Under the pieces are notes generated by a model, which did not search any database, was not told the DNA's origin, and was given only the letters and a program-made list of their open reading frames with translations. The position numbers and the translations under genes are program-made. A stretch of DNA of 64,000 nt, taken from assembly GCA_040219515.1 (NCBI GenBank), contig JAVJSI010000018.1, positions 62,001 to 126,000 on the forward strand. The letters run 5' to 3'. Shown here in pieces: positions 26,889-32,552 of this stretch. The DNA comes from Acidimicrobiales bacterium (lineage in GTDB: Bacteria; Actinomycetota; Acidimicrobiia; Acidimicrobiales; Aldehydirespiratoraceae). Numbering within the stretch: position 1 is the first letter of the stretch; each line of letters starts with the position of its first letter.

Positions 26889-28244
26889 CTACGACGGCCC
26901 GACGTCGGCCAACTGCACCGCGGCGGCGAGCGTGGGCGCTCGCAGCACGGTGAGACCGGCCGGCGCCTCGCCGGTGGCGTGGGGAACGATGGCTCGCCGA
27001 AACCCCATCCGGGCCGCTTCACCGAGCCGGCGGTTGATGTGGCTCACGTGGCGCAGCTCGCCACCGAGACCGACCTCTCCGACGACGACGAGATCGTCGG
27101 CCAGCGGGTGACCGGTGAGTGACGACGTGATCGCCAGCGCCAGACCGGCATCGGCTCCGGGGTCGCCGATGCGGGCACCGCCGACCGCGAGGGCGTAGAC
27201 CTCGGCGCCCGACACCGGCAGCCCGACCCGACGCTCGAGTACGGCCAGGAGCATGGCCAGCCGACCATGGTCGAGGCCCTGGGCGCTGCGCCGCGGGGTG
27301 GCGAGCTGGGAGGGGGCCACGAGGGCCTGCACCTCCACGAGCAGGGGACGGTTGCCGTCAACCGTGGGCACCACCGCCGAACCCGACACGCCGGTGACCC
27401 GGTCGGCCAGGAAGAGCCCGCTCGGGTCGTCGACCGGCGCAAGGCCCAACTCGTCCATCTGGAGCAGGCCGACCTCGGACGTGGGGCCGAAACGGTGCTT
27501 CGACGCCCGCAGGAGCCGGAGCCCGTGCTGGCGGTCGCCGTCGAACTCCAACACGGTGTCGACCACGTGTTCGAGCACACGCGGCCCGGCCAGCGTGCCC
27601 TCTTTCGTGACATGACCGACGAGCAACAGCGCGATGCCGCGCCGTTTGGCCTCCTGCACCAACGCATGGGCGCATTCACGGACCTGCGACACCGAACCGG
27701 GCGCCGAGGTGAGATCGGGATTCACCAGGATCTGTACCGAGTCGATCACGACGACCTCGGGCTTCACTTCATCGAGATGACCGAGGACGTGCGGCAGTAC
27801 GGTCTCACCCACGAGCCACAGGTCGTCGTGGAGAGCGCCGAGACGATCGGCCCGACTCCGCACCTGCGAGGCCGACTCTTCGCCCGACACGTAGAGCGCC
27901 TTCTGCCCGCCGCCGGCCACCGAGCCGACGAGCTGGAGCATCAGCGTGGACTTGCCGATGCCGGGTTCGCCGCCGACGAGCGTGACCGAACCAGGGACGA
28001 GCCCACCACCGAGCACCCGGTCGACCTCGGCGAGACCGGTCGGTCGCAGCAGGTTGGACTCGTCGGGAACGTCGGCGATCGGCATCGCCACGCTGTTGGC
28101 GCCGGCCACGATGGTCGACGGCTCGCGCACATCAAGCTCTTCCACCAGGGTGTTCCACTCGCCGCAGCCGTCGCAACGCCCTGCCCACTTGGGTGCCCCT
28201 GCGCCACACGACGTGCAGCGGTGAACCGTTCTGATCCGTGCCAT
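26889..28244 (-). CDS. radA: DNA repair protein RadA (Sms)
   Basis: A 451-residue RadA. The N-terminal four-cysteine zinc finger is CTSCGAGAPKWAGRCDGC, then come Walker A GGEPGIGKSTLMLQ and Walker B VVIDSVQ. The RadA-specific KNRFG motif is present as KHRFG (Asn to His), and the C-terminal Lon-like domain has VGEVGLGGELRHVSHINRRLGEA. RadA helps branch migration during recombination. The start ATG 28244 has a TAGGGT box 6 nt upstream, so it is probably leaderless. The KHRFG substitution is worth checking because this motif is functionally important. Confidence 0.94.
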   Translation of the reverse strand: MARIRTVHRCTSCGAGAPKWAGRCDGCGEWNTLVEELDVREPSTIVAGANSVAMPIADVPDESNLLRPTGLAEVDRVLGGGLVPGSVTLVGGEPGIGKSTLMLQLVGSVAGGGQKALYVSGEESASQVRSRADRLGALHDDLWLVGETVLPHVLGHLDEVKPEVVVIDSVQILVNPDLTSAPGSVSQVRECAHALVQEAKRRGIALLLVGHVTKEGTLAGPRVLEHVVDTVLEFDGDRQHGLRLLRASKHRFGPTSEVGLLQMDELGLAPVDDPSGLFLADRVTGVSGSAVVPTVDGNRPLLVEVQALVAPSQLATPRRSAQGLDHGRLAMLLAVLERRVGLPVSGAEVYALAVGGARIGDPGADAGLALAITSSLTGHPLADDLVVVGEVGLGGELRHVSHINRRLGEAARMGFRRAIVPHATGEAPAGLTVLRAPTLAAAVQLADVGPS

Positions 28245-28295: not shown

Positions 28296-29762
28296 TCAGC
28301 TGGTGCGGCTGCGGAGCAGGTCCTCGAACCCTCGCACGACCGTGTGGCTCGTGTCGGGCGCCTCTTCGTCGCCGGCGACGAAGAGACCCGTGGCCATGCC
28401 CAGCTTCTCCGCGACGTCGAGATGCTCGGGCACGTTCGAGAGATAGAAGCAATCGAAGAGATCGACGGACAGTGTGCGACGCGTGGCCTCGAACAGCGCC
28501 GGTTCGGGAAGGGCCGAGCCCACATCACCGCTCACCATCCACGACGCGATCGAGTCGTCGAGCGCCGCCATGCGCCGGAGTCGGTCGCCCCAGGCTCTCG
28601 GCTGATTGCCCACCGCCGCCACAGGGAGACGGCTGGCCGCCATCCGGTCGAGGAACGGATGGAGCCCGGGCACCAGACGGAACGTGGACAGGTATTTGGT
28701 CTCGATCTCCTCGGCGATCGGCCCGAGGCCGACCTCGGCCCAGAACTCCTCGACCGACATCCGCCCCAGCGTGAGGCGCCGGTGCAGGTCGCGCACCCGT
28801 TCGGCGGACGCGTCGGGGCGTTCGGCCAGAATCAACGGGAGCAACACTCCCTCGAGCGGGTCCGACGGTCGCACCAGTACACCGTGGACATCGACGATCA
28901 GCAGACGGAGCATCCGCCGACGGGGACGGTTGGCCTCTTCGGCCCGGCTGGCCGCGTTCTGTTGACGGCGGCGCACATCACGACGGCGGCGACCCTTCGG
29001 CGTGCGCAGCTTGGCCAGCAACAGGCCGGCGAGACGCGAGAGCAGGATGCCGGCGAACAGCAGGAATGCCAGCAGCGCGACCATCGCCCAGACCCGCGGC
29101 AAGATGTCGTCGGTCGTCGAGGTGGCATCGAGCTGAATGGTCGAGGTGGCGCCGAATACCGTCTCCCACGCCACGGCCTCGGGCTCTTCCACGCCCGTCT
29201 CCGACGATTCGCGATCGGGTAGCCGCACCCGCACGATCACCTGGTCGTCCCCGTTGCGCTGCTCGTCGATGAGCCCCTCGCGGGCATCGATGCCGACCAG
29301 CTCGAGGAGGTCCGCGTCGGCGAAGGCGGCCAGGTCGGGGTTCGGGTCGACCGTGCCGGTGAGCCGGTACTCGGTGTGCGCCGGACCCAACCCGATCCGG
29401 TCAAACGAGTGCATCTTCTCGAGCGTGACGCCATCGAAGATCACGCCCTCGCCCGCGATCTCGGCCAGGACGTCGGGCAGCGCGTCGGCATTGACGAACG
29501 GCTTCGACAGGGCGACGGTCATCGCCCCTGATGCATCGATGTCGGGCCCGTCGACGACCCAGCCGGAGGCCTCGAGGTCGTCGAAGCGCAACCCGTCGGG
29601 CGCGTCCGGTACTGCCGCGACCGCGGCGGCGTCGGCCACCACAGTGACGGCGACGACACCGGACCCGTTCTCTTCGACGGTGATGTCGACCGTGGTGTCG
29701 ACACGACACGCGCTCGCCACGAGGACGAGTATCCCCAGAAAGAGCAGACGGACCCGACGCAT
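28296..29762 (-). CDS. LppM-like lipoprotein domain - transmembrane helix - degenerate HAD domain fusion
   Basis: A continuous 488-residue frame. Residues 1-19 are a lipoprotein signal (LVLVASAC, Cys19). The external part to about 215 resembles the LppM/DUF3153 beta-rich domain (VDITVEENGSGVVAVTVVADAAAV). A hydrophobic helix spans about 225-247 and is followed by a basic stretch (KGRRRRDVRRRQQ). From residue 284 there is a HAD-like domain, but motif I reads VDVHGV (the second Asp is His) and motif IV LSNVPEHLDVA lacks the usual GDxxxD, so it is probably inactive. ATG 29762 has TAGCGT 7 nt upstream. Met284 could also start a separate 205-residue protein. Confidence 0.75.
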   Translation of the reverse strand: MRRVRLLFLGILVLVASACRVDTTVDITVEENGSGVVAVTVVADAAAVAAVPDAPDGLRFDDLEASGWVVDGPDIDASGAMTVALSKPFVNADALPDVLAEIAGEGVIFDGVTLEKMHSFDRIGLGPAHTEYRLTGTVDPNPDLAAFADADLLELVGIDAREGLIDEQRNGDDQVIVRVRLPDRESSETGVEEPEAVAWETVFGATSTIQLDATSTTDDILPRVWAMVALLAFLLFAGILLSRLAGLLLAKLRTPKGRRRRDVRRRQQNAASRAEEANRPRRRMLRLLIVDVHGVLVRPSDPLEGVLLPLILAERPDASAERVRDLHRRLTLGRMSVEEFWAEVGLGPIAEEIETKYLSTFRLVPGLHPFLDRMAASRLPVAAVGNQPRAWGDRLRRMAALDDSIASWMVSGDVGSALPEPALFEATRRTLSVDLFDCFYLSNVPEHLDVAEKLGMATGLFVAGDEEAPDTSHTVVRGFEDLLRSRTS

Positions 29763-29769
29763 TGCGACG

Positions 29770-29775
29770 ACGCTA
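29770..29775 (-). promoter_or_regulatory. -10 box of the leaderless lipoprotein-HAD gene
   Basis: Minus-strand TAGCGT lies 7 nt before the ATG at 29762, in the 68-bp gap following the clpC stop. Confidence 0.5.
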
Positions 29776-29830: not shown

Positions 29831-32389
29831 CTAGAAGGATTCGCCGCCGTCGACCGCGTCGGCGAGCTCGGGCTCCGGTGGCTCGAAGCCCTCGATCGCC
29901 CGGAAGACGACCATGAGTTCGTTGTCATTCTCGGGGTCGGGCTCGACGTCGACGATGATGATCTCGCCGGCCCGGAACTCCTTGTAGAGGAGCTTCTCGG
30001 ACAACGGATCCTCCACGAGACGCTGAAGGGCACGCCGCAGCGGGCGAGCACCGAGGGTGGGGTCATAGCCCTTGTCGGCCAGATGGTCCTTGGCGGCATC
30101 GGTGAGCTCGAGGCCCATTCCCTGCCCACCGAGCTGGATCGCCGTGCGGCCGACCATGAGGTCGACGATCTGGCGAACCTCGGGCTGGCTCAGCTCGTGG
30201 AACACGATCGTGTCGTCGATGCGGTTGAGGAACTCGGGCCGGAAGTGCGCCTTGAGCGCGTCGTTGACCTTTTCCTTCATCTTCTCGTAGTTGACCGCCT
30301 CGCTGCCCGAACCGAACCCGATCTGCGCCTTGCGCAGGTCGGCGGTGCCGAGGTTGGAGGTCATGATCAGCACGGTGTTGCGAAAGTCGACCGAGCGACC
30401 CTGCGAGTCGGTGAGACGACCCTCCTCGAGGATCTGCAACAGCGTGTTGAAGACGTCGGGGTGGGCCTTCTCGACCTCGTCGAAGAGCACGACGGAGAAC
30501 GGCTTGCGGCGCACCTTCTCGGTGAGCTGGCCACCCTCTTCGTAACCGACGTAGCCAGGGGGCGAACCCACCAGGCGGCTGACGGTGTGCTTCTCCATGT
30601 ATTCCGACATGTCGAGGCTGATGAGGGCGGTCTCATCGCCGAACAGGAACTCGGCGAGCGTCTTCGCGAGCTCGGTCTTGCCGACGCCCGACGGGCCCAG
30701 GAAGATGAACGAGCCGCTGGGGCGCTTGGGGTCCTTCAGACCGGCCCGGGTGCGACGGATCGCCTGCGACACGGCCTTGATGGCGTCCTGCTGGCCGATG
30801 ACCCGCTTGTGCAGCTCGTCCTCCATGCGGAGGAGCTTCTCGGTCTCTTCCTCGGTGAGCTTGTAGACCGGGATGCCCGTCCACAGCGAGAGCACCTCGG
30901 CGATGGCCTCTTCGTCGACCTCGTCGAACAGATCGAGACCGGACGCCTTGGCTTCGCCTTCCATGGACTCGCGGCGAGCGAGGAGTTCCTTCTCCTTGTC
31001 GCGCAGGCGGCCCGCCTCTTCGAACTGCTGGCCTTCGACGGCGTCCTTCTTCTGGCCGACGACAGCGGCGATCTCGGCTTCGAGTTCCTTGTATTCCGGC
31101 GGGGTCTCCATGCGCTTGATCCGCAGACGCGAACCGGCCTCGTCGATCAGGTCGATGGCCTTGTCGGGCAGGTGACGATCGGCGATGTAGCGATCGGCCA
31201 GGTTGGCCGCGGCCACGAGCGCCTGATCGGTGATGGTGACCCGGTGGTGCGTCTCGTAGCGATCGCGCAGACCCTTGAGGATCTCGATCGTGTGGCCCAC
31301 GGTCGGCTCGTCGACGACGACCTTCTGGAAACGGCGCTCGAGGGCGGCGTCCTTCTCGAGGTGCTTGCGGTACTCGTCGAGCGTGGTGGCACCGATGGTC
31401 TGGAGCTCACCACGGGCGAGCATCGGCTTGAGGATCGACGCGGCGTCGATGGCTCCCTCGGCCGCACCGGCACCGACGAGCGTGTGGATCTCGTCGATGA
31501 ACAAGATGATGTCGCCGCGGGTCTTGATCTCCTTGAGCACCTTCTTGAGGCGCTCCTCGAAGTCGCCGCGGTAGCGGCTGCCGGCGACCAGCGCGCCCAG
31601 ATCGAGGGTGTAGAGCTGCTTGCCCGTGAGGGTCTCCGGCACATTGTCCGCCGCGATCGACTGGGCGAGGCCCTCGACGATGGCGGTCTTGCCGACGCCG
31701 GGCTCACCGACGAGCACGGGATTGTTCTTGGTGCGGCGCGACAGGATCTGCATGACCCGTTCGGCCTCGCGGCTGCGACCGATGACCGGATCGAGGCCCT
31801 TCTCGCGTGCGAGCTGGGTGAGGTTGCGGCCGAACTGGTCGAGCACGAGCGAACCCGACGCGCTGTCCCCACTCGAACCGCCGGCGGTGGCACCGGCCTT
31901 GTCGCCGCCGCCACCACTGCTGCTGCCGGCTTCGCCGCTGCCGCCGGAACCCGAGTAGCCCGAGAGCAACTGGATGACCTGCTGGCGCACGCGACTCAGG
32001 TCGGCGCCGAGCTTGACGAGCACCTGCGCCGCCACGCCCTCGCCCTCACGGATGAGGCCGAGGAGGATGTGTTCGGTGCCGATGTAGTTGTGGCCGAGCT
32101 GCAGTGCTTCGCGCAGGCTCAGCTCGAGGACCTTCTTGGCGCGAGGGGTGAAGGGGATGTGACCACTGGGCGACGAGCCGCCCTGACCGATGATCTCCTC
32201 GACCTGGTTGCGCACCGCCTCGAGGCTGATGCCGAGCGACTCGAGTGCCTTCGCGGCAACTCCCTCGCCCTCGTGGATCAGTCCGAGAAGGATGTGCTCC
32301 GTCCCGATGTAGTTGTGATTGAGCAGACGCGCTTCCTCCTGCGCCAGCACCACCACTCGTCGAGCCCTGTCGGTGAACCGCTCGAACAT
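29831..32389 (-). CDS. clpC: ATP-dependent Clp protease ATP-binding subunit ClpC
   Basis: An 852-residue Hsp100. Two N-terminal Clp repeats (both with [14 protein letters not shown]) are followed by a Gly/Ser-rich linker (about 150-190). AAA module 1 has Walker [14 protein letters not shown] and Walker [16 protein letters not shown]-containing middle domain follows ([19 protein letters not shown]), then AAA module 2 ([33 protein letters not shown]) and the C-terminal D2-small domain. It unfolds substrates for ClpP. ATG 32389 starts the family sequence [14 protein letters not shown] and has SD GGGAGGG 8 nt upstream. It is divergent from a polyprenyl synthase gene. Confidence 0.97.
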
Positions 32390-32424
32390 CGGTATTTCCC
32401 TCCCACATCTGGGTCGTCCAAGTG

Positions 32425-32430
32425 AGTGTA
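32425..32430 (-). promoter_or_regulatory. Candidate -10 box of clpC
   Basis: Minus-strand TACACT lies about 36 nt before the clpC ATG, giving a leader of roughly 30 nt that contains the GGGAGGG ribosome-binding site. No confident -35 or ClgR site was identified. Confidence 0.4.
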
Positions 32431-32552
32431 CCGGGGTGACTCGGCCTGAAACGGTCGAATCCGGCAACTACTCTCGTCACCATCGGCAGGTCGGTGGTCC
32501 ACGTGAACCCCCCCACTGCGTCTCCACTGCGTCGTGGGCGGTGTTTTTCACG

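Follow-up and report, generated by a model that had tools for sequence, protein, structure and literature searches.

Why would a putative lipoprotein, encoded between clpC and radA, carry a HAD-fold domain in which nearly all catalytic residues have been replaced? The gene that raises this question occupies positions 28296-29762 on the minus strand of the window, the whole 64,000-nucleotide stretch of DNA that was analysed. It is a single open frame of 488 amino acids, read from an ATG at 29762 to a stop codon at 28296-28298; frame, strand and coordinates had been given correctly in an earlier, sequence-only reading of the locus. The encoded parts follow each other as a signal peptide with a lipobox, a beta-rich LppM-like outer domain, one transmembrane helix, an arginine-rich stretch and a HAD fold. 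Directly upstream lies an ORF (29831-32467, minus strand) that we take to be clpC, listed with a TTG start; its true start is probably further downstream. The gene directly downstream (26889-28244, minus strand) is presumably radA, both neighbours having been named from their sequences, with the ORF list and synteny as the basis. A plasmid search returned no match. A Pfam search with the window protein gave just a sub-threshold HemY_N match, weakly recurring in 11 of 39 fusions. This match sits over the transmembrane stretch and is regarded as an artefact of its composition. Modelling of the entire protein by AlphaFold with 39 fusions resulted in a mean pLDDT of 83.9 and a pTM of 0.47, the latter being uninformative on domain arrangement or coupling.

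The fusion is a genuine one. A sequencing or frame-merging error is ruled out by its recurrence, since the window's family, represented by 37 genomes (the window's own and 36 others), has the one-frame fusion in 35, including the single-contig genome G004. The two remaining cases are a fragment at a contig end (G036) and a gene split by unread bases (G018), and every genome of the family with a complete locus has the fusion. Among the matches listed, it occurs in at least 89 of the 297 genomes of the order, belonging to at least 14 families, and the gene mostly follows clpC directly. This number was counted by hand from 81 single full-length matches, seven two-piece matches in one frame and one genome (G070) in which the second piece was found separately; two broken cases (G195 and G117) were excluded. 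The sequence-only reading knew of no described protein with this architecture. No description of an LppM-HAD fusion was found in the open-licence PMC literature covered, but the architecture itself is common in the order.

Elsewhere in the order, the LppM part occurs without a HAD, in most cases again at the clpC-radA locus. Samples of the class (198 genomes) and of the phylum (296 genomes), both of which include genomes of the order, yielded no fusion beyond the order; the matches outside it (E <1e-20) were either to LppM without a HAD or to a standalone HAD. Of the 90 loci, 78 show the end of clpC and 59 the start of radA; the neighbour lies on the same strand in 77 and 57 of these, respectively. 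Four LppM-only loci of the same class outside the order (L096-L099) also have clpC and radA matches nearby, the radA match in L099 being partial. Because LppM-only genes are found near clpC and radA outside the order as well, the LppM locus is probably older than the fusion.

Seven nucleotides before the ATG, the hexamer TAGCGT (29770-29775, minus strand) resembles a -10 element and is probably a promoter of the gene itself, from which an mRNA with little or no leader would start. A TAnnnT pattern at 6-8 nt before the candidate start was counted in 26/36 loci of the window's family, 31/43 other fused loci and 1/11 unfused loci, compared with 1/36, 1/43 and 0/11 at a spacing of 3-5 nt. Counts in the window's family are also elevated at 15-17 nt (13/36) and at 30-32 nt (9/36), an effect of later in-frame start codons, for which this one hexamer is counted again. 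All 90 loci were used for these counts, including five in which the script found no lipobox. Translation probably starts at 29762 from an own, leaderless transcript, as judged from a pattern count rather than a mapped promoter. A second start inside the frame had been named as a point to check. Initiation near Met284, which sits at the domain edge, would yield a separate soluble HAD, and hence two proteins from one frame. However, of 30 family members, no more than 16 have Met at this residue (Leu in 13, Thr in one), so a HAD made separately is not a conserved feature; we consider this explanation hardly credible.

The signal peptide with its lipobox (29706-29762, minus strand) ends in Cys19, which is nearly invariant (at least 90%) across 39 aligned fusions. 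This degree of conservation rules out a chance lipobox. From the motif, we infer that Cys19 is lipidated, in line with the lipidated external domain that had been predicted. The region that follows (residues 20-219; 29106-29705, minus strand) was folded alone as the N-terminal part with 32 aligned members, resulting in a pLDDT of 89.0. The best VIA-align match of this model is the LppM protein of M. tuberculosis (2nc8), with a Z of 10.8 over 157 residues versus 6.7 for the next entry, and 17% identity over the aligned part. Of the 32 aligned relatives, 14 match PF21946 (best E 9.2e-6), while the window protein has no hit at E 0.1. A PDB profile search with the LppM alignment gave no match. Foldseek placed unrelated chains on top for the N-terminal domain, none at E <=0.001, the LppM match coming from VIA-align only. 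As in PF21946 members, a lipobox is present at the N-terminus and a transmembrane helix at the C-terminal side of the domain. On the evidence of the predicted model and the family matches, the outer domain is LppM-like, as the sequence-only reading had proposed. The mycobacterial LppM is described in a passage of a review as binding a phosphatidylmyoinositol mannoside and as being linked to phagosome blocking (PMC6151718). Such a host-related role should not be transferred to the window protein.

A transmembrane helix is predicted by AlphaFold at residues 221-253 (29004-29102, minus strand), and is followed by a basic juxtamembrane linker (PKGRRRRDVRRRQ..., residues 254-283; 28914-29003, minus strand). 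The 25-residue flanks of the helix differ clearly in charge: across 79 fused proteins, the HAD side has a mean of +6.7 and the LppM side of -1.7, and the HAD side is the more positive one in 77 of the 79. The positive-inside rule is well established. As the HAD-side flank is positive and the N-terminus would be lipid-anchored, the HAD domain is predicted to be inside the cell, which agrees with the orientation given earlier.

The length of the connection between helix and HAD varies strongly, from 19 residues (f12) to 280 residues (f55). In f55 (L090, L091), approximately 270-280 acidic low-complexity residues separate the two. The window's family has a short and partly helical linker, with a helix at residues 259-276 soon past the transmembrane helix (AlphaFold model and alignment), and coupling of the domains across the membrane is possible there. 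These features bear on the proposal that the protein is a transmembrane receptor, with the LppM domain as sensor of an envelope ligand and the pseudo-HAD as signalling output, the shape or the pairing of the latter being altered via the helix. Having a folded domain at either side of the helix would suit such a receptor, as would the short linker of the window's family. Linkers of 19-280 residues, including the low-complexity ones, are nevertheless ill-suited to a rigid signal, and within the window's genus, conservation is lowest in the LppM domain. A receptor is therefore considered unlikely. Since a stiff signal is not expected to pass through such linkers, a tether is the simpler reading for the fused family. 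Of the signalling or scaffolding role first suggested, scaffolding is compatible with these data, and conformational signalling is disfavoured for the fused family.

The C-terminal domain (residues 284-488; 28299-28913, minus strand) was characterized by fold, motif and constraint comparisons. The predicted model of residues 283-486 superimposes on 3cnh with a Z of 21.4 and an rmsd of 2.5 over 191 residues. Its closest solved folds are HAD-IA hydrolases (3cnh, 4dcc and YihX), and haloacid dehalogenases are among the close matches. The degenerate HAD domain that had been read from the sequence is thus borne out at the level of the fold, and structure prediction has matched both folded parts of the protein. 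Motif I reads DVHG (28881-28892, minus strand), in which Asp291 is kept and the second Asp is replaced by His293, both being invariant in 36/36 family members. Motif IV has Ser442-Asn443 (28434-28439, minus strand) in place of the acidic pair that serves Mg2+ binding, Ser442 again being invariant in all 36. These two motifs had been read correctly at the outset, but two further losses were overlooked: in motif II, GNQP by alignment (28599-28610, minus strand), the Ser/Thr has become Gly385, and in motif III, the Lys has become Leu418 (28509-28511, minus strand), invariant in 36/36. The whole family (36/36) shows the same pattern of D-x-H, G (Ser in one member), L and S-[N/S/A]. Among the motif I-IV positions examined, the nucleophile Asp291 is the sole canonical catalytic residue that is left. 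No Pfam HAD model matches the window HAD, whereas intact fused and standalone relatives pass.

The substitution of the second Asp is a poor indicator of inactivity when taken alone. This residue is not used by every active HAD; haloacid dehalogenases work without it, and retain Ser and Lys. It is missing in 81/81 aligned HADs (79 fused and two standalone, rather than one from each of the 89 fusion genomes), for which six catalytic positions were tabulated. It is also absent from four other HADs of the window's genome, namely those that a standalone HAD query retrieved there besides the window HAD. D-x-H as proof of inactivity was rejected on these grounds. The four control proteins keep the nucleophile, the Ser/Thr, the Lys and the motif IV acids, and the losses in the window HAD are therefore its own and not a habit of the genome. 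It is the joint loss of Ser/Thr, Lys and acidic pair, the residues of Mg2+ binding and phosphoryl transfer, that marks the domain, as far as its sequence can tell, as dead as an enzyme. The pseudoenzyme suggested by the sequence-only reading is thus supported, and on firmer grounds than were first offered.

Could the domain have become a hydrolase of another kind? An active membrane-bound enzyme might use Asp291, with His293 as acid-base, and act independently of Mg2+ at the inner face, its substrate being lipid-linked or of another kind. Both residues are invariant in 36/36 family members, DxH is accompanied by a kept Lys in three of four sampled f27 members, and the dehalogenases demonstrate that a close fold can work without the second Asp. 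They do so, however, with the Ser and Lys in place, while the window's family has lost the Ser/Thr (bar one of 36), the Lys and both motif IV acids, and the window HAD fits none of the Pfam HAD models, which intact relatives do fit. We hold such an altered hydrolase to be quite improbable. Because Asp291 is invariant, and would be unneeded in a purely structural module, the window HAD may still perform some chemistry or bind a metal.

The dead domain is under purifying selection. Comparison of seven members of the window's genus (21 pairs) gave a pN/pS of 0.16 in the HAD, 0.24 in the transmembrane helix with the linker and 0.49 in the LppM domain, so that the HAD is the most constrained domain and the LppM domain the least. 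Across the 36 family members, 53 HAD residues are invariant, and the former catalytic loops are less variable than the rest of the HAD, with a mean entropy of 0.51 versus 0.86 (p 0.004, with columns treated as independent and loops picked by the analyst). No stop codons are present in the 30 loci read. A decaying gene, in which the HAD part is a remnant heading for loss, would explain the repeated loss of catalytic residues and the LppM-only versions that other families, and the class beyond the order, have at the clpC-radA locus. Such a remnant is strongly disfavoured by the pN/pS of the HAD, the lowest of the three regions, and equally at odds with the invariant residues and the lack of stops; we regard it as very improbable. 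A dead pocket that is so strictly kept suggests a binding site.

The other fused HADs place this loss in a wider history. At the nucleophile position of the 81 HADs, Asp was found in 62, Gly in eight, Glu in seven, Asn in three and His in one, the losses occurring variously in f53, f43, f55, f35, f39, f12 and part of f17 and f51. Of the 79 fused HADs, 16 retain the nucleophile together with the Lys and the acidic pair, and these are confined to three families (f18, f25 and f28). As predicted from their motifs, these HADs may well be active, for which reason the ancestral role of the fusion may have been enzymatic. In f27 (L075-L077), DxH with a kept Lys is possibly an intermediate or a convergent state. 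A tree of 60 fused proteins requires a minimum of seven changes for the nucleophile, seven for the Lys and four for the acidic pair, indicating repeated, independent losses of catalytic residues. All trees are of the 'quick' kind. The 60-protein tree includes the catalytic columns (6/510) and keeps 17/36 rows of the window's family, the HAD tree keeps eight, and the window-family rows of the ClpC tree are those of 12 chosen with at least 350 aligned residues.

The ClpC tree implies at least five changes between the fused and the unfused state, gain and loss being indistinguishable. The best HAD tree splits standalone from fused HADs with a support of about 69. At this modest level of support, we take it as likely, but no more than that, that the fusion arose once. 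Intact fused forms and standalone relatives read DAMG or DGMG, S/T, RKP and DD. From this shared pattern, the parent of the fusion was most likely a D-x-M-type HAD that already lacked the second Asp. Standalone relatives were found in 2/24 genomes of another class. A standalone D-x-M subfamily with the other motifs intact (L052, L092, L094 and L095) is present both within the order and in a different class of the phylum.

We consider it rather probable that the window protein is a membrane-tethered pseudo-HAD, kept as a binding or docking module at the inner face of the membrane. The lipid anchor and the LppM-like domain would lie outside the cytoplasmic membrane, which is crossed by the single helix, and the basic linker would position the HAD-fold domain at the inner face. 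The outer domain would probably bind an envelope lipid, in analogy to its mycobacterial counterpart LppM. The HAD would not hydrolyse a substrate; its old active-site pocket would instead bind a ligand or a partner protein, serving as a dock or scaffold. After the fusion, lineages would separately have lost catalytic residues, and some may have lost the whole HAD domain. ClpC is a candidate partner on adjacency alone. A broader proposal is put forward tentatively: an ancient LppM-HAD module next to clpC, present order-wide, would repeatedly have been made into a pseudoenzyme, with catalysis dispensable early. Its HAD would mainly serve binding at the inner face; one possibility is that it acts as an adaptor, linked to the envelope, through which ClpC is offered substrates.

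Kinases and some phosphatases include well-studied pseudoenzymes. For HAD pseudophosphatases or pseudoenzymes, the open-licence PMC literature covered offered protist or amoeba phosphatases but no bacterial membrane protein. At this one locus, in at least 14 families, fused HADs that look active, half-decayed or dead form a natural series in which to study how an enzyme might turn into a binding module. The joining of an LppM-type lipoprotein to a cytoplasmic domain is also a possible lead to the role of such lipoproteins away from a host.

Compared with known systems, the window protein resembles LppM (Rv2171, PF21946, 2nc8) in being a lipoprotein with the same fold of the outer domain; it differs in its HAD, as the class and phylum samples contained no LppM joined to a cytoplasmic HAD beyond the order. 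With the HAD-IA hydrolases 3cnh, 4dcc and YihX, the window HAD shares the fold, but it lacks the Ser/Thr, the Lys and both motif IV acids. The standalone HADs L052, L092, L094 and L095 belong by profile match to the same HAD subfamily as the fused HAD, and L094 retrieves YihX and 3cnh by sequence. No in-frame lipoprotein or transmembrane part was found in them. Both of those tested (L052 and L094) score above the Pfam cut-offs for Hydrolase and HAD_2, and the group has kept its catalytic residues save the second Asp.
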